The position numbers and the translations under genes were made by a program. Under the pieces are notes generated by a model. It ran no database searches. It saw only the letters and a program-made list of their open reading frames with translations, and was not told where the DNA came from. A stretch of DNA of 64,000 nt, taken from contig NZ_JAIKLE010000004.1 of NCBI RefSeq assembly GCF_022267315.1, forward strand, positions 186,001 to 250,000, read 5' to 3'. This DNA is from Maribellus maritimus (lineage in GTDB: Bacteria; Bacteroidota; Bacteroidia; Bacteroidales; Prolixibacteraceae). Below, in pieces: positions 28,951 through 35,731 of the stretch. Position 1 is the first letter of the stretch. Each line of letters opens with the position of its first letter.

Positions 28951-29420
28951 GTGTATATGTTTTAGTTAATATTTTAAATATTTACAGAATTATTTGTTAA
29001 TGCTGTATTTCTATCCAAATTTTTTAATCATCTCAGGCATGAAAACTTACTTCTTTGTGAAGTGAATTTTTCCCATTTTCTTTTCCCGTTTTTCGGAAGT
29101 TTTATAAAAAAGGTCACCAAAATTAGTAATAATTTATTAACAATCAAGTTCCATGAATTTGCGAGTTAATGTTATACAACTATATTTTTTTTACTGTTTT
29201 ATTTAAGCAATTATAATTCAGTTGTTTAAACGTTTTTGTCGATAGATCGGTGTTGGGTTAATATTCTCATATTCAGATGTTTGATTTTGTTTTCTCGGAG
29301 GCCGTTGAATAAATATGATTTTAGTCGATTGTGTAAAAAGGATGCAAGAAGTATTTGTGCAAATAATCAGCTTTTTATATGTCTTATTTAGACTGAATAA
29401 AAAAAAGTTTTAAAAAATGG
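28951..29420. other. AT-rich divergent gap
   Basis: Region between the EF-G paralogue (-) and the sulfur operon (+). Very AT-rich, with no open frame over 30 codons and no hairpin with a T-tract that I can find. It presumably holds the EF-G paralogue promoter near 28980-29020, but no clean TAnnTTTG box is seen there. Confidence 0.45.
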
Positions 29421-29450
29421 TTTGAAAAGAAAAATATTCATTTACATTTG
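29421..29450 (+). promoter_or_regulatory. Promoter of sulfite-reductase operon
   Basis: TTTG (29421-29424), 18 nt spacer, then TACATTTG (29443-29450): an exact fit to the Bacteroidota TTTG...TAnnTTTG promoter. Transcription is predicted to start near 29457, about 20 nt before the leader-peptide ATG. Confidence 0.75.
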
Positions 29451-29475
29451 CAATGTGATAAAAATCATAAAAAAA

Positions 29476-29574
29476 ATGAAGCAGTATTCTTCTGAAATAA
29501 AATTGAATCCGATGGCATGTATGATGTGTATGTGTTGTCATATTCATTTTATGCGGAAGGAATTTAAAATTTGA
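29476..29574 (+). CDS. Cys/Met-rich leader peptide of sulfite-reductase operon
   Basis: A 32-codon frame with ATG at 29476 and TGA at 29572-29574. Residues 13-21 read MACMMCMCC, followed by HIHFMRKEF. In total there are six Met and four Cys (codons 15, 18, 20, 21), an extreme enrichment. It begins about 20 nt after the predicted transcription start, ends 26 nt before an intrinsic terminator, and precedes genes for sulfite reduction and siroheme synthesis. This is the arrangement of an amino-acid-responsive leader: low cysteinyl-tRNA (or methionyl-tRNA) would stall ribosomes at codons 15-21. The peptide itself is unlikely to have another job, though Cys-His metal binding cannot be excluded. 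Too short for routine gene finders. Confidence 0.72.
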   Translation: MKQYSSEIKLNPMACMMCMCCHIHFMRKEFKI

Positions 29575-29611
29575 GAGTATATAATTAGTTAGGATTTATT
29601 GCCCTTCTGCA
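29552..29611 (+). promoter_or_regulatory. Candidate antiterminator pairing
   Basis: TGCGGAAGG (29552-29560, inside leader codons 26-29) can pair with CCTTCTGCA (29603-29611): nine base pairs with one G-U. The second segment includes eight of the ten bases of the terminator's 5' arm, so the two folds are mutually exclusive. The upstream arm starts 14 nt after the last Cys codon. A ribosome stalled at the Cys codons would leave it free; one terminating at 29574 would cover it. Confidence 0.6.
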
Positions 29612-29630
29612 AACAGCAGAGGGGCTTTTT
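29601..29630 (+). terminator. Intrinsic terminator/attenuator before sulfur genes
   Basis: GCCCTTCTGC (29601-29610) pairs with GCAGAGGGGC (29616-29625) as a 10-bp stem with one G-U pair and an AAACA loop, followed by TTTTT (29626-29630). It lies after the Cys/Met leader and 85 bp before the first structural gene, so it should act as an attenuator. Confidence 0.85.
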
Positions 29631-29715
29631 GTTTTATAGGGATGAATGTTTAAACCTAAAAATAACTGAGATTGAAAGAAAACATAAAAATAAGTAGATT
29701 TTATCTTGAAAATTT

Positions 29716-29979
29716 ATGGTTGTGAATAAGAATAGGAGCAGTGAAAAAATAAGGGAGAAAAAGAGCCGGAGCATTGTAAAAACTATTTCCTGGCGAACGA
29801 TAGGAACTATTGATACCATAATAATTTCGTGGATAATTGTGGGAAATGTGAATTTTGCCGTAACCATTGGCGGGGTTGAGTTGTTTACTAAAATGGCACT
29901 TTACTTTTTACACGAAAGAGCCTGGAATAAAAGCAACTTCGGCAGGGTTAAAGAAGTGCCCGTTGAATACGAAATTTAA
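29716..29979 (+). CDS. DUF2061 membrane protein of sulfur-assimilation operon
   Basis: An 87-residue protein. After a basic N-terminus (RSSEKIREKKSR), the conserved region SIVKTISWRTIGTIDTIIISWII, GVELFTKMALYFLHERAWN is the complete DUF2061 signature with two membrane segments. Proteins of this family are often encoded beside sulfate-activation or sulfite-reduction genes, as here; a role in transport or membrane organisation is unproven. It is the first structural gene after the attenuator and starts 11 bp before the next. Confidence 0.82.
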   Translation: MVVNKNRSSEKIREKKSRSIVKTISWRTIGTIDTIIISWIIVGNVNFAVTIGGVELFTKMALYFLHERAWNKSNFGRVKEVPVEYEI

Positions 29980-29990
29980 TAAATATAACA

Positions 29991-30449
29991 ATGAAAAAGA
30001 ATTTTCTGCCAATTTCCATCAATATTGAAGGGCAAAAAATTTTAATTATCGGAGGTGGAGAAAGCGCCTTCAAAAAAATAAAAATACTACAGCGTTTTGG
30101 AGCTGAGGTTGAGGTATTGGCCATCGATGTTTCTGATGAAATAAAACAAAGCGGAATAAAGTATTTTGAAACAGCATACCAAAAGAAACATTTGACAGGA
30201 TATTTGATGTTGTATTCCTGTACCAATAATTATGAACTGGATAAACAGATTCTTTCAGATGGAGAAGAAATGGGGGTTTTGGTAAATATTCACGACAAAC
30301 CTGAACTGTGCCAGTTTGTTTCGCCGGCCATATATAAAAATGGTAAAATGACGGTTGCTGTTGCTTCAAATGGCGAAGATGTATATGAGTCAATTCGGCT
30401 TCGAAATAAAATCAGTGAATTTCTAACAGATAATTTTCATAAAAACTAA
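29991..30449 (+). CDS. Precorrin-2 dehydrogenase/sirohydrochlorin ferrochelatase (siroheme synthase N-terminal type)
   Basis: A 152-residue protein corresponding to the N-terminal module of siroheme synthase CysG (Met8p-like). ILIIGGGESAFKK (residues 18-30) is the NAD-binding loop, LMLYSCTNNYELDKQI the nucleotide-binding strand, and VNIHDKPELCQFVSPAIYKNGKMTVAVASNG is the family signature with the VND-like region and the catalytic-type Asp. It makes sirohydrochlorin from precorrin-2 and probably inserts iron to form the siroheme used by the sulfite reductase encoded two genes on. The methyltransferase half is a separate gene at 34994. One base separates it from cysJ. Confidence 0.85.
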   Translation: MKKNFLPISINIEGQKILIIGGGESAFKKIKILQRFGAEVEVLAIDVSDEIKQSGIKYFETAYQKKHLTGYLMLYSCTNNYELDKQILSDGEEMGVLVNIHDKPELCQFVSPAIYKNGKMTVAVASNGEDVYESIRLRNKISEFLTDNFHKN

Positions 30450-30450
30450 A

Positions 30451-32277
30451 ATGAGTTTAAAATCGAATCCATTAAGTGAAAAGCAGAAAATTGCTTTAAA
30501 TGAATTGGTGAAAGATGTAACAGTTGAACAGATAATTTGGCTGAACGGTTTTTTAGACGGACGACTGGCCGGACTAAATGGAAACGGAAGTCCTGTTGAG
30601 GTAACATCAGTAGTTACCGAGGCTGTAAAGGAAACTACAACAGTGGCAAACCTCACCATTCTGTTTGGTACCGAAACGGGAAATGCCGAAGAGGTAGCCC
30701 AAAAGCTGGCTGAAAAAGCAAGTTTTAAAAATGTGGCTGTTAATGTGGTAGATATGTACGATTATGATCCTAAAAAATTAAAAGATGAAGAAAATGTTGC
30801 AATTATAGTTAGTACTCACGGCGAAGGAGAACCACCTGATATGGCGGAAGAGTTTCATAAATTTGTTACAGGGAAACGTCTTCCCAAGCTCGAGAACTTG
30901 AGCTTCTCTGTCCTGGCCTTGGGCGACAAAACGTACCGAAATTTTTGCCAAACAGGTGAAGAAATTTATAATGCTATAAAAAAGAGTGGTGGCTTTCCTG
31001 CTACTCCACTCGCAAAGTGCGATGTTGATTACGAAGCCACTGCGGAAGTATGGATGAATAACCTGCTTATCAACTTAGCGCCATCCGAAACGACAACAAA
31101 AGTTGAAACGGCAGTTGAAGAGACCACTGTTATTACCTCGCCTCCAGCCACCAAAGTTCCGGTTTCAGAATTTTCTAAAAAGAATCCTTTTAGTGCAATG
31201 GTGCTCGATAAAGTTCGAATTACCGGTAATGGTTCCGACAAGGAGGTATATCATCTTGAACTTTCGCTTGAAGAGTCAGGATTAACATACGAGCCTGGAG
31301 ATTCTGTTGGCGTGTTTACTAAAAATCCGCCGGAACTGGTTGACGATATTATTCAAAAATGCGGATTCGACCCGGAGAAAAACATTGCTTTTGGAGAAGA
31401 AGAAGTGTCCTTGTTAAATGCACTCACATACCATTACGAAATTACTGTAATGACATTTGATTCATTACAGAAATACTACGGGAGAACAAAAAATCCGGAA
31501 CTCAAAATAATTCTGGAAGATGACAAAAAGCTTGACGAATATCTTTACGGATGCGACTTGCTTGACTTACTCGATGATTTCCCGTTTGATTGGAACGTAA
31601 ACAAACTAATTGAAATTTTACGACCACTTCCTCCGCGTTTGTATTCCATTTCTTCAAGTATGGAAAGTGTTGGCGAAGAGGTTCATATTACTGTTTCTGT
31701 CGTAAATTTTGAAAGAAAGAAACGGCAACGTTTTGGTGCCTGTTCATCCAATTTGGCTGATTTTATTGACCAGGATGATAAAATTCCGATTTATATAGAA
31801 AAAAATCCGGGTTTCAGATTGCCGGCCAACGGTGCCCGAATTATTATGGTTGGGGCGGGAACCGGAATCGCTCCTTACCGTGCATTTATGCAACAACGTG
31901 AAAGTTTGGGAATGAAGGGAAACACCTGGTTGTTTTTCGGTGACCGTCGGTTTCAATCTGATTTTTTGTATCAAACAGAATGGCAGAAGCTGTTGGAAAA
32001 GAAACTTCTGGAAAGAATGGATGTAGCTTTTTCACGTGATCAGGAAGAGAAAATTTATGTGCAGCATAAGTTAAAAGAGAATCGGAAGGAGATTTTTAAC
32101 TGGATGGATAACGGGGCACATTTTTATCTCTGTGGAGACCGAAAAAATATGGCTAATGATGTAACAAAAACTTTCCTCGAAATAATTCGAACAGAAGGTG
32201 GTGTAAGTGAAGAACAAGCTGAAAAATATTTAAAACAATTAAAAAAAGAAAAACGGTTTCAAACCGATGTATATTAA
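30451..32277 (+). CDS. cysJ: Sulfite reductase [NADPH] flavoprotein subunit
   Basis: A 608-residue diflavin reductase. Residues about 68-205: FMN flavodoxin domain (LFGTETGNAEEVA, STHGEGEPPDMAEEF, ALGDKTYRNFCQ). Residues about 250-430: FAD domain (ESGLTYEPGDSVGVF, RPLPPRLYSISSS). C-terminal NADPH domain: VGAGTGIAPYRAFMQQRE, FFGDRRF and YLCGDRKNMANDV, ending in a DVY tail typical of CysJ. It passes electrons from NADPH to the siroheme subunit to reduce sulfite to sulfide. One base after the siroheme gene. A strong hairpin terminator follows before the hemoprotein gene. Confidence 0.93.
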   Translation: MSLKSNPLSEKQKIALNELVKDVTVEQIIWLNGFLDGRLAGLNGNGSPVEVTSVVTEAVKETTTVANLTILFGTETGNAEEVAQKLAEKASFKNVAVNVVDMYDYDPKKLKDEENVAIIVSTHGEGEPPDMAEEFHKFVTGKRLPKLENLSFSVLALGDKTYRNFCQTGEEIYNAIKKSGGFPATPLAKCDVDYEATAEVWMNNLLINLAPSETTTKVETAVEETTVITSPPATKVPVSEFSKKNPFSAMVLDKVRITGNGSDKEVYHLELSLEESGLTYEPGDSVGVFTKNPPELVDDIIQKCGFDPEKNIAFGEEEVSLLNALTYHYEITVMTFDSLQKYYGRTKNPELKIILEDDKKLDEYLYGCDLLDLLDDFPFDWNVNKLIEILRPLPPRLYSISSSMESVGEEVHITVSVVNFERKKRQRFGACSSNLADFIDQDDKIPIYIEKNPGFRLPANGARIIMVGAGTGIAPYRAFMQQRESLGMKGNTWLFFGDRRFQSDFLYQTEWQKLLEKKLLERMDVAFSRDQEEKIYVQHKLKENRKEIFNWMDNGAHFYLCGDRKNMANDVTKTFLEIIRTEGGVSEEQAEKYLKQLKKEKRFQTDVY

Positions 32278-32392: not shown

Positions 32393-34093
32393 ATGAGTGA
32401 ATCGATTAAATGGGAAGAGTTATCTGAAGTTGAGAAAATAAAATTCGACAGTAATTATCTGCGGGGAACTTTGCTGGAAAGTCTGGCTGATCCGATTACT
32501 GGCGCGATACACGCAGATGATACGCAGGTATCCAAATTTCACGGTATTTATCAGCAAACCGATCGGGACACCGACAAAGAGCGAAAACAACAAAAACTGG
32601 AACCGTTGTATTCGTTTTTAATCCGTGTGCGCATGCCGGGAGGTACAGTAACTCCGCAGCAATGGTTACAAATGGATACTATTTCCAACGAGTTTGCTAA
32701 CGGAACATTAAAACTAACAACCCGCCAAACGTTTCAGTTGCATGGTGTGCTTAAGAAGAATTTGAAAGGAACGATTCAGAAAATTAACGATCGTTTGCTG
32801 GACACCATCGCTGCCTGCGGCGATGTAAACCGAAATGTAATGTGTCATGCAAATCCGGCCGAGTCTCCACTTTATCCGGAAATTATTGAACTGGCAAAAA
32901 AAGTGGGGGGGCATTTATTACCTCAAACGGGTGCTTACCACGAAATATGGCTTGACAAGAAGTTGGTGGCCGACAGCAAAGAAGAAATTGAACCGCTTTA
33001 CGGAGAGCGTTATTTGCCGCGTAAGTTTAAAATAGGAATCGTAATTCCGCCGCAAAACGACTGTGATGTTTTTTCGCAGGATTTGGGTTTTATTGCCATC
33101 ATCGAAAAAGAAAAAATAGTGGGATACAACGTCGTTGTTGGCGGAGGATTGGGCTCTACTTTTGGAAAGCCTGAAACTTACCCCAGAGCAGGAAATGTGA
33201 TTGGTTTCTGCAAACCTGAACAGGTAATCGATGTGGCGGAAAAAGTGGTATTGGTGCAACTCGATAATGGCGATCGCCAAAACCGGAAACAGGCACGTTT
33301 AAAATATACAATCGACAGGCTTGGCCTCGACTGGTTTGTTGATGAGGTGGAAAAGCGACTTGGTTTTTCGTTGGAGAAAGCGAGGGCTTTCAAATTTACA
33401 CGCACCGGGGACAACTTCGGATGGAAAAAAGGTACCGACAATAAATGGCATCTTACTTATTTTGTGGAAGGTGGTCGTGTAAAAGACGACGGAACTCGCC
33501 TGCTAAAAACAGCTCTCCGTGAAGTCGCAAAAATCAGCGACGGGAATTTTATTCTTACCGGTAACCAGAATTTAATTATTGCCGGCGTTTCCGAAAAGGT
33601 AAAAAAGAAGGTAAATACTATTTTTAATAAACACGATGTCTCTCCCAACGGAATTTCTGGCTTACGGAAAAATTCGATCGCATGTGTGGCTTTGCCAACC
33701 TGCCCACTGGCATTTGCCGAGGCTGAGCGCTATTTGCCCACGCTGGTTTCAAAAATTGAAACGATTTTGGAAAAATATAACCTGTATAAAGAGGAAATTG
33801 TTATCCGAATGACTGGCTGCCCCAATGGCTGTGGCCGCCCATACCTGGCCGAAATTGGCTTGATTGGCAAATCGCCCGGTTACTATAACCTTTATCTTGG
33901 TGGAAGTTTTAACGGTTCCCGCCTCAATACCTTATACAAAGAAACGATTTCTGAAGAAGAGATTTTACAGGAATTGGAACCAATCATCAAAGATTATGCG
34001 GAATCGCGAAATAAGGGAGAGCATTTTGGCGATTTTATACTTCGAAAAAATTATGTAAAGGAAATAAAAGAAGGGAAGGAGTTCAGGCACTAA
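32393..34093 (+). CDS. cysI: Sulfite reductase hemoprotein (siroheme/4Fe-4S) subunit
   Basis: A 566-residue siroheme protein reducing sulfite to sulfide with six electrons from the flavoprotein. The cluster-ligating Cys are 431, 437, 476 and 480 (CVALPTC and TGCPNGC), almost the same numbering as the E. coli enzyme (434, 440, 479, 483). N-terminal substrate-binding features include QLHGVLKKNLK and the CGDVNRNVMCHANP stretch. Length typical. It lies after the flavoprotein gene, with a hairpin between the two. Confidence 0.93.
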   Translation: MSESIKWEELSEVEKIKFDSNYLRGTLLESLADPITGAIHADDTQVSKFHGIYQQTDRDTDKERKQQKLEPLYSFLIRVRMPGGTVTPQQWLQMDTISNEFANGTLKLTTRQTFQLHGVLKKNLKGTIQKINDRLLDTIAACGDVNRNVMCHANPAESPLYPEIIELAKKVGGHLLPQTGAYHEIWLDKKLVADSKEEIEPLYGERYLPRKFKIGIVIPPQNDCDVFSQDLGFIAIIEKEKIVGYNVVVGGGLGSTFGKPETYPRAGNVIGFCKPEQVIDVAEKVVLVQLDNGDRQNRKQARLKYTIDRLGLDWFVDEVEKRLGFSLEKARAFKFTRTGDNFGWKKGTDNKWHLTYFVEGGRVKDDGTRLLKTALREVAKISDGNFILTGNQNLIIAGVSEKVKKKVNTIFNKHDVSPNGISGLRKNSIACVALPTCPLAFAEAERYLPTLVSKIETILEKYNLYKEEIVIRMTGCPNGCGRPYLAEIGLIGKSPGYYNLYLGGSFNGSRLNTLYKETISEEEILQELEPIIKDYAESRNKGEHFGDFILRKNYVKEIKEGKEFRH

Positions 34094-34172: not shown

Positions 34173-35012
34173 ATGATAAAAAGAGTATCCATATTAGGTT
34201 GCGGGTGGTTAGGAACTGCTTTAGGGAGAAGATTGATGTCAAAAGGATATGTGGTTAAAGGTTCTGCTGCTACTTCTGAAAGTTATACCAAGCTTGAGTT
34301 TACAGGAATTCAAACCTATCATATTCGCGTTGAACCCGACTCGTTAACAGTTGATTACAATAGCTTTTTTAACACCGATGTTTTAATTTGTTGTATTCCG
34401 CCCCGACGAAACGAAAATGTAGCGGATATCTTTCCAAGACAAATAGCGCAAATAGCGCAGCAGGTTCAGAAGATGGAAATTTCAAAAGTAATTTTTATCT
34501 CTTCCACTTCGGTCTATGAATCGGGAAACAAAGTTGTGCGGGAAGGAGAGGAAGGAAATCCGGAGAAAGCGAGTGGCCAGGCTTTGTTAAAGGCAGAGGA
34601 GATTTTGCTAACTATTCCCGGGGTTCAGACAACTGTGGTTCGCTTTGGCGGATTAATTGGTGCCAATCGTAATCCGGCACGCTTTATGGCCGGTAAAAAA
34701 AATATTGCAGCCGGTTCGCCGGTAAATCTGATACACCGGGATGACTGCGTGAACATTCTTACTGAGATTATTGAAAAGGGAGTTTGGGGCGAAGTGTTTA
34801 ATGCCTGTAGCCCGGAACATCCCACCAAGGAAGAGTTTTATACAAAAGCTGCCAAAATAAGTGAATTACCTCTGCCTGAGTTTTCAGAGAGAACAGAGAA
34901 CTACAAAGTGATTAGCAGTGAAAAGTTGATAAACAGGCTGGACTATAAATTTCAGTATCCCAGTCCAATGGATTATCTAAAAGAGCTGGAAGAATGGACA
35001 TATCGCATTTGA
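34173..35012 (+). CDS. NAD(P)-dependent epimerase/dehydratase-like SDR (YeeZ-like)
   Basis: A 279-residue extended SDR protein. ILGCGWLGTALG (residues 8-19) is the nucleotide-binding loop; DVLICCIPP, VIFISSTSVYE, VVRFGGLIGANRNPARFMAGK and NLIHRDDCVNI follow the YeeZ family, whose reaction is unknown. No Tyr-x-x-x-Lys of the classical type is placed after the STSVYE segment, so catalysis is uncertain. It overlaps the SUMT gene by 19 bp inside the sulfur operon, hinting at a link to tetrapyrrole or sulfur metabolism. Confidence 0.75.
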   Translation: MIKRVSILGCGWLGTALGRRLMSKGYVVKGSAATSESYTKLEFTGIQTYHIRVEPDSLTVDYNSFFNTDVLICCIPPRRNENVADIFPRQIAQIAQQVQKMEISKVIFISSTSVYESGNKVVREGEEGNPEKASGQALLKAEEILLTIPGVQTTVVRFGGLIGANRNPARFMAGKKNIAAGSPVNLIHRDDCVNILTEIIEKGVWGEVFNACSPEHPTKEEFYTKAAKISELPLPEFSERTENYKVISSEKLINRLDYKFQYPSPMDYLKELEEWTYRI

Positions 35013-35731
35013 TATCGATCGTAGGTGCCGGCCCCGGCGATCCTGAATTACTGACTGTTAAAGCAGAGAGACGTATCAAAGAAGCTGACGTGGTTTTGTA
35101 TGACGCGCTTATGGGCGGAGCGATACTCGATTTGGTAAAACCAGGTTGTGTGAAAAAGTTTGTAGGAAAACGACATAACGACGGACAAGACCAGAAAGTA
35201 AGGCAAACAGAGATCTGTAACGATTTAGTATTCTGGGCGCAAAAAAACAAAAAGATTGTACGTTTAAAAACCGGTGATCCAATGATTTTTGCCCGTGGAG
35301 CAGAGGAAATAAGGTTTTGTAAAGAAAACAATTTAAACTATGAAGTGATTCCGGGAATAACAGCCGCTACAGCAGGTGCATCAATATTTTCAATTCCCCT
35401 AACCGAGCGCCAGAAAAGTAACATGGTATTGTTTTATACCGCTTGCAGAAAAGAAGATCGCTTCTCGGATATTAATGTGGTTGCCGATGTAATTTGTTCG
35501 GGGTCGCCGGTGTTAATTTATATGGGATTGAGTTGTTTGCCCGAACTCGCTGAGAAATTGCAGGATTCTGGTGTGTCGTCATCTGTTCCGGTACAGGTAT
35601 TGAGTAAAATCTCACAAAATACACAGAAGAGCTACACTACTAATTTAGGTGAAATTGAAACATTTATGGAAACCAATACTCCGGAAACCCCGTCGGTAGT
35701 CATCATTGGTAAATATGCGCTGGGGATTTAA
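34994..35731 (+). CDS. cobA: Uroporphyrinogen-III C-methyltransferase
   Basis: A 245-residue SUMT-type enzyme making precorrin-2 from uroporphyrinogen III with two SAM. Motifs: VGAGPGDPELLTVKAER (residues 10-26), VLYDALMG, VRLKTGDPMIFARGAEE and VIPGITAATAGASI, plus IYMGLSCLPEL. The start overlaps the previous gene by 19 bp. Together with the small dehydrogenase/ferrochelatase at 29991 it makes the siroheme needed by cysI. The two activities, fused as CysG in enterobacteria, are separate here. Confidence 0.92.
   Translation: MDISHLISIVGAGPGDPELLTVKAERRIKEADVVLYDALMGGAILDLVKPGCVKKFVGKRHNDGQDQKVRQTEICNDLVFWAQKNKKIVRLKTGDPMIFARGAEEIRFCKENNLNYEVIPGITAATAGASIFSIPLTERQKSNMVLFYTACRKEDRFSDINVVADVICSGSPVLIYMGLSCLPELAEKLQDSGVSSSVPVQVLSKISQNTQKSYTTNLGEIETFMETNTPETPSVVIIGKYALGI

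Follow-up and report, generated by a model that had tools for sequence, protein, structure and literature searches.

A putative transcription attenuator with a Cys- and Met-rich leader peptide upstream of the siroheme and sulfite reductase operon of Maribellus maritimus

Upstream of its siroheme and sulfite reductase genes, Maribellus maritimus carries a short reading frame crowded with Cys and Met codons and followed by an intrinsic terminator, an arrangement that raises the questions of whether the operon is controlled by ribosome stalling, which amino acid is sensed, and how far such leaders extend through the phylum. Here, we describe a computational analysis of this element, which lies in a stretch of 64,000 nucleotides (contig NZ_JAIKLE010000004.1, positions 186,001 to 250,000; hereafter the window) from an assembly of 7.33 Mb in 201 contigs. 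Coordinates are those of the window, and features are on its forward strand unless stated otherwise.

The operon begins with a gene for a DUF2061 membrane protein (29716–29979; PF09834) and continues with a siroheme synthase of the CysG N-terminal domain type (29991–30449; TIGR01470), cysJ for the sulfite reductase flavoprotein (30451–32277; TIGR01931) and cysI for the hemoprotein (32393–34093; TIGR02041), the last three above cut-off. An SDR/epimerase-like protein is encoded 3' of cysI (34173–35012; TIGR01777, below cut-off), as it is in relatives, followed by a uroporphyrinogen-III C-methyltransferase of the cobA or CysG C-terminal type (34994–35731; TIGR01469, above cut-off). An earlier sequence-only reading of this DNA had the downstream genes (siroheme synthesis, cysJ, cysI) making sulfide for cysteine, and the domain assignments fit that role. 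The same reading named a promoter, TTTG-N18-TACATTTG, which is indeed present at 29421–29450 (TTTG at 29421–29424, TACATTTG at 29443–29450) and which we take to be of the Bacteroidota sigma-ABfr type. Just 3' of the -7 box lies an unstranded palindrome, TGTGATAAAAATCATA (29454–29469), a candidate CRP/FNR-like operator or 5' hairpin. When one mismatch is allowed, the genome holds three further copies of this palindrome (one in the backwards control), of which one is perfect and lies, by eye, 5' of a SusC-like gene.

Between promoter and operon, a 32-codon ATG frame, MKQYSSEIKLNPMACMMCMCCHIHFMRKEFKI, occupies 29476–29574, with its stop codon at 29572–29574, Cys at codons 15, 18, 20 and 21, and six Met including the start, all as described previously. 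Codons 15–21 (29518–29538) read C M M C M C C and are the putative sensing codons. The intrinsic terminator was found by a terminator scan where it had been placed, at 29601–29630, and comprises a 10 bp stem (29601–29625), a 5 nt loop and a U tract. Arm 2, TGCGGAAGG (29552–29560), lies inside the leader frame and is complementary, as claimed, to arm 3, CCTTCTGCA (29603–29611), which lies within the 5' half of the terminator, and the two would form the 5' and 3' halves of an antiterminator. The claimed spacing holds in part: there are 13 nt between the last Cys codon and arm 2, but the distance from the end of arm 2 to the stop codon is 11 nt rather than 14 nt. A further pairing, absent from the earlier reading, joins arm 1 (codons 4–7; 29487–29494) to arm 2 at 29554–29561; it is present in the minimum free energy fold, could serve as a protector or pause hairpin, and completes the usual 1:2 / 2:3 / 3:4 scheme. 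The leader region folds better than any of 200 shuffles (0/200 as good, z -4.4), and two terminator-like sites occur in the scanned 1.4 kb against a shuffle mean of 0.5. Rfam gave no match in the window at the gathering threshold (nine sub-threshold matches fall in 29380–29720), and the SAM-I riboswitch model RF00162 had none in the window. An NCBIfam search with the leader peptide returned no family, and the sole match to the peptide in the window's genome at E up to 10 was itself.

Conservation of the element was examined at cysI loci, CysI being matched in 25 of 61 genomes. The 23 cysI loci taken comprise 22 same-genus counterparts, from Draconibacterium and Maribellus (Draconibacterium being placed in Prolixibacteraceae, Bacteroidia at NCBI), and one from another family; two fragments in one genome (G001) and a weak second match in another (G016) were left out. 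All 22 same-genus loci have the order cysG(N)-cysJ-cysI (21 with DUF2061) and a Cys/Met leader 5' of the operon, and the single cysJI locus from another family of the order has none (0/1) in the 3.7 kb covered 5' of cysJ. Alignment of 26 sequences (the window, the 22 same-genus loci and L065, L073 and L101 from the codon scan described below) gave the four core Cys in 25, 25, 26 and 26 sequences and the three core Met in 26, 25 and 26, with TGT/TGC exchanges at all four Cys positions and variable residues outside the core. A TAnnTTTG box lies 5' of the leader in 26/26 sequences, among which no conservation of the TTTG at the window's spacing was seen by eye. An intrinsic terminator separates the leader from the first gene, likewise in 26/26. 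Since leader, arms and terminator recur throughout the alignment, the element in the window goes beyond chance; the Cys/Met codons, terminator and antiterminator pairs, whose presence in relatives the earlier reading had proposed to check, are all kept. Among these related loci, L065 has hemA as the first gene after its attenuator, L050 has a shorter relative in that position and L042 is alike by eye, in each case ahead of the siroheme and sulfite reductase genes.

Pairing is near complete in the antiterminator (213/214 alignment cells) and the terminator (257/260), and 190/208 cells pair between arms 1 and 2. For the antiterminator (its outermost pair a gap in 20/26 rows), the percentage paired, the number of both-side-changed cells (10) and the covariation score (0.234) were each reached by none of 500 shuffles, and slid controls were 49–60% paired; one pair is AU in 14 sequences, GC in 8, GU in 3 and unpaired in 1. 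The other two of the five measures, pairs with a both-side change and pair types, were reached by 268 and 302 of the 500 shuffles. For arm 1:arm 2 and terminator together, shuffles reached the five measures in 8, 413, 17, 412 and 2 of 500 cases, and two slid versions exceeded the native number of both-side changes (11 and 9 against 7 cells). The aligned rows are related, so these shuffle tests overstate significance. As a duplex, arm 2:arm 3 with full arms has a mean of -13.0 over the 26 Prolixibacteraceae sequences, with 3.6% of shuffles as good and none of 300 as good in 8/26 loci; with a shortened arm 3 the native value is -10.5 and the swapped value -9.9, 14% of shuffles being as good.

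Two further sets of 30 loci each, centred on metY and cysD in relatives, were inspected for like leaders, and none was found in the 29 metY and 24 cysD neighbourhoods that could be judged, one metY and six cysD loci being excluded (contig cut or another gene centred); cysD is mostly internal to its operon, and a leader further 5' may escape the cysD count. One locus per set (L113, L153) has a Cys-dense ATG frame outside longer ORFs, which we take as chance.

To relate the arms to ribosome position, all 26 aligned sequences were folded in a model that takes the RNA 3' of the ribosome, with the edge fixed at 14 nt, counted from where the A-site codon begins, and that scores upstream pairing of arm 3 before arm 4 exists. 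The mean probability of this pairing is 0.97 (lowest 0.62) while the A site holds one or the other of the last two core Cys codons; it drops to 0.57 two codons further on and to 0.14 after four, and stands at 0.06 once the stop codon is reached. If only pairs with arm 2 are counted, the last core Cys codon again gives a mean of 0.97, and no sequence exceeds 0.09 four codons later. For a ribosome at the stop codon, the window retains 0.34 upstream pairing of arm 3, through partners outside arm 2, and L049 behaves alike. The ribosome-stalling geometry that the sequence-only reading had recognised is thus reproduced in the model, where a stall at the Cys codons frees arm 2 and a ribosome at the stop codon covers it. 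In the full-length RNA, the terminator is preferred at every sampled ribosome position (mean 0.98–0.99), so any switch would have to be kinetic. Under the same model, the trpL leader of E. coli K-12, a proven attenuator, gives 0.62 at its Trp codons and 0.02 at codon 14, with a full-length terminator at 0.84–0.86, and it thus shows the same behaviour and the same model limit, the terminator being preferred at full length. The window and trpL share a leader frame with regulatory codons, alternative hairpins and an intrinsic terminator; they differ in that the window has Cys/Met rather than Trp codons, belongs to another phylum and holds arm 2 inside the leader frame, and no descent is claimed.

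We consider it very probable, from sequence comparison and modelled folding, that the element is a ribosome-mediated transcription attenuator of the trp type that senses Cys-tRNA and perhaps also Met-tRNA; this interpretation, already put forward in the earlier reading, is supported by the conservation test and by the ribosome folding with trpL as a yardstick. RNA polymerase would transcribe the leader with a ribosome close behind. With ample charged Cys-tRNA, the ribosome would reach the stop codon and cover arm 2, arms 3 and 4 would build the terminator, and transcription would end. With scarce Cys-tRNA (possibly Met-tRNA too), the ribosome would stall on codons 15–21 and leave arm 2 exposed, which would then pair with arm 3 while arm 4 is yet to be transcribed and so prevent the terminator; read-through would turn on the siroheme and sulfite reductase genes and yield sulfide for cysteine. 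Without a ribosome, arm 1 could hold arm 2, and the terminator would form.

The distribution of such leaders was surveyed at several depths. A joined pattern (Cys codons plus the arms of this clade) matched the window alone in 295 genomes of the order, a sample that holds one other same-genus genome (without a cysI match) and two of the family. The CMMCMCC codons, allowing one mismatch, matched in 10 of 395 genomes of the phylum (backwards control 2), and these are the window, seven leaders of Balneolaceae (f49) and two chance-like matches. A codon scan for C-M/I-M-C-M-C-C, covering 84,980 species at one genome each, returned 40 stretches, of which 26 are clear leaders: 13 in Prolixibacteraceae, 8 in Balneolaceae including Rhodohalobacter, 4 in Flavobacterium and 1 in a Saprospiraceae metagenome-assembled genome (MAG). 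Seven stretches are ferredoxin-like frames (six in Omnitrophota, one in another bacterium), and six are unrelated frames. The arm pair at the Saprospiraceae locus (-5.4 kcal/mol) is weak and unconvincing. The remaining stretch, a possible leader on the reverse strand of a Bacteroidetes MAG (L102), is a KCMMCMCCCC-stop frame that precedes an AhpC/TSA-family gene, with an Rfam fluoride riboswitch match inside or next to the stretch of the following gene. The four Flavobacterium leaders (L071, L072, L094 and L099) end in SCMMCMCC, and the last three of them are flanked on one side by an Rrf2-type regulator and on the other by a TonB-dependent receptor; no terminator was seen by eye in the Flavobacterium leaders before the receptor.

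In Balneolaceae (phylum Balneolota at NCBI, within the window's phylum in the grouping used for genome sampling), the leader and its terminator are followed by a SAM-I riboswitch and then metY-metX. The riboswitch is present in 7/8 of the loci found by the scan, the eighth (L081) being cut off, and in 20/20 metY loci of f49. An ATG frame with at least three Cys in eight residues occurs in 17 of these 20 loci, against 1 on the antisense strand and 6% of dinucleotide shuffles, and one more of the loci, L225, has a leader with a GTG start. For the Cys-dense ORF counts before metY given here and below, the 800-nt stretch was shifted by hand in L223, L225–L228, L276, L277 and L279, where the leader lies further 5', a shift that favours the real strand; the antisense and shuffle controls took the same stretches. 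The arms are unlike those of the window, with AAGGGC(TT) at the stop codon and AAGCCCTT, or GCAGAGGG and CCCTCTG, in f49, and with GGAGTGGC or GAGTGGTGTT and arms of the GCCATTCC type in another family (f50, two genomes). Across 25 loci outside Prolixibacteraceae, the native arm duplexes average -12.7 kcal/mol; the average is -9.4 when arms are swapped between loci (516 duplexes) and -6.0 when they are shuffled, and 2.1% of shuffles are as good. The terminator finder, run on 30 such loci, missed 11 and took a wrong hairpin in L075 and L223; eight of those loci, including L075, were entered by pattern, the terminators of L223 and L229 were placed by eye alone, and none was found in L276, L277 and L279.

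Of the 30 loci, 16 from two families were folded beside the modelled ribosome, and upstream pairing falls from a plateau of 0.58–0.98 to about half or less 2–4 codons past the Cys cluster, gradually in L230, L231 and L236; L231, L238, L293 and L294 carry isolated additional Cys codons closer to the stop codon, which are located after the drop. Because the folded lineages share a Cys cluster placed where a stalled ribosome just misses arm 2, attenuation by codon counting of Cys-tRNA is the best fit.

Among other Bacteroidia, seven class-wide loci with full-length CysI yielded leader/terminator units in two genomes, G117 and G144, probably of Flavobacteriaceae (f31). G117 has two units in tandem with different arms 5' of cysH (L313 / L338), and G144 has one before a cysE-like gene, as judged by eye, and another before metY (L258); the four arm pairs were matched by 1, 0, 17 and 2 of 1000 shuffles. 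Cys-dense frames without a visible terminator occur at L308, L310 and L312, the Cys frame at L309 is chance, and L311 has no leader in its stretch, a leader lying before cysH (L323) in the same genome. The best 30 cysH loci in the class include 8 with a Cys-dense ORF within 700 nt 5' (antisense 2/30), of which L321 is probably chance. Five of them (L324, L325, L331, L332 and L335) have six or seven near-unbroken Cys, for example MMCCCCCCC and MTPIKQHHSSIASNRMMCCCCCCC, and no terminator was found in these five by script.

Before metY, a set of 20 Bacteroidia loci (L243–L262) has 12 Cys-dense ORFs (antisense 1, shuffles 6%) and SAM-I in 16; all but one of these 16 (15/16) have a short ORF beginning 3–9 nt past the aptamer, with 3–8 Cys in 11 of these ORFs. 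No intrinsic terminator was seen by eye in these sequences. No convincing leader was found in another 30 metY loci (L164–L193), the best from 247 genomes, and 40 further loci gave 9 with a Cys-dense ORF against 3 on the antisense strand, so the presence of a Cys leader before metY is patchy.

These leaders bear on the identity of the signal. We infer from sequence that cysteine rather than methionine is sensed, because Cys-run leaders with few Met exist in other Bacteroidia. That the same attenuator answers to methionine, or to both sulfur amino acids equally, is unlikely: the core Met are conserved as well as the Cys (25–26 of 26) and metY-metX stand 3' of the leader in Balneolaceae, but in other Bacteroidia some of the leaders ahead of metY or cysH consist of Cys runs, with as many as seven Cys in succession and few Met, and the window's operon yields sulfide, one step short of cysteine. 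In Prolixibacteraceae and Balneolaceae, Met may contribute to the signal of a cysteine-sensing attenuator.

A different kind of stall, in which the Cys/Met-rich nascent peptide binds a ligand such as a metal ion or a thiol and arrests the ribosome, would account for CMMCMCC being kept as amino acids with few substitutions in the 26 sequences. We judge it very unlikely, since the arrangement of Cys differs greatly between lineages (CMMCMCC, CCMCMCM, CCICICCPCCC, CCCCCCC), an order and spacing that better fit codon counting, and the controlled genes are sulfur genes. Control could instead lie mainly with a protein at the promoter palindrome (29454–29469), the hairpins being secondary. The motif GTGA-N6-TCA[CT] is present in all 26 aligned sequences, beginning 12–20 nt past the start of the -7 box, which points to an additional layer of control or to a 5' hairpin; as the main control it would leave the leader, the arms and their spacing unexplained, and we regard it as extremely unlikely in that role, although such a protein may act additionally. 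Finally, it is barely credible that the frame, conserved as it and its core are, encodes a functional small protein beside an ordinary terminator, given that the non-core residues vary, that its 3' part holds an RNA arm keeping its pairing to the terminator, and that this terminator stands before its own operon with no other evident use, not serving the EF-G-like gene 5' of the operon because that gene is divergent.

A cysteine-responsive attenuator of this design, with ribosome stalling set against an intrinsic terminator, resembles known systems in part. Actinobacterial cys operons are reported to be preceded by leader ORFs with Cys runs, for which no conserved terminator hairpin was found (Seliverstov et al., 2005; PMC1262725), and polycysteine leader ORFs of mycobacteria are reported to be leaderless and cysteine-responsive (Canestrari et al., 2020), with translation attenuation stated for M. 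smegmatis in work citing that report. The actinobacterial leaders are likewise short Cys-codon ORFs before cys operons, whereas the window has a conserved intrinsic terminator and antiterminator and interspersed Met. Set beside a run of Cys codons close to the stop codon, as in the actinobacterial type, the window's Cys cluster is interrupted by Met and followed by 11 codons before the stop. With 25 nt between the -7 box and the ATG, the window's leader is probably not leaderless. Within Bacteroidota, a paper on Flavobacterium psychrophilum (PMC9723704) mentions unspecified clues to leader-peptide attenuation 5' of amino-acid biosynthesis operons, a likeness in phylum and in kind of control, but its passages on attenuation name neither cysteine nor sulfur genes. 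General statements on leader peptides in Bacteroidota are made in PMC7366714, the main text of PMC2965389, which surveys premature terminators, contains no word that starts with Bacteroid, and a riboswitch survey (PMC2258182) reports, in the portion available, SAM riboswitches in Bacteroidetes and no leader peptide. Before metY, in Balneolaceae as in other Bacteroidia, SAM-I (RF00162) lies next to Cys leaders; it is a different sensor and, as noted, has no match in the window. The sequence-only reading knew of no described case in Bacteroidota, and our search of titles and abstract starts in the open literature, with most subscription journals and supplements outside its range, agrees in finding no cysteine attenuator in the phylum. 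A 2010 study by Lopatovskaya et al. may cover parts of the subject. The principle of attenuation is known, and its terminator-based cysteine variant in this phylum is apparently undescribed.

In the sea, in soil and in the gut, Bacteroidota play a major part in processing sulfated and other organic matter, and the control of their sulfur assimilation is little described in the literature surveyed. Similar putative switches are present ahead of further sulfur genes in a number of Bacteroidota lineages and their relatives, a range wider than the earlier reading could see. We tentatively propose, with some doubt, that Cys-codon leaders form a widespread layer of sulfur-assimilation control in Bacteroidota sensu lato, acting as trp-like attenuators before cysG-J-I, cysH and metY-metX, with arms turned over completely and spacing kept, and combined before metY with SAM-I in both orders; at loci whose leader starts 3–9 nt past the aptamer, SAM may gate translation of the leader as part of a two-input (SAM and cysteine) logic gate. 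Leaders with unlike arms and the same spacing make attenuation by codon counting directly testable. The combination of SAM and cysteine, if true, would be a natural two-signal RNA gate.
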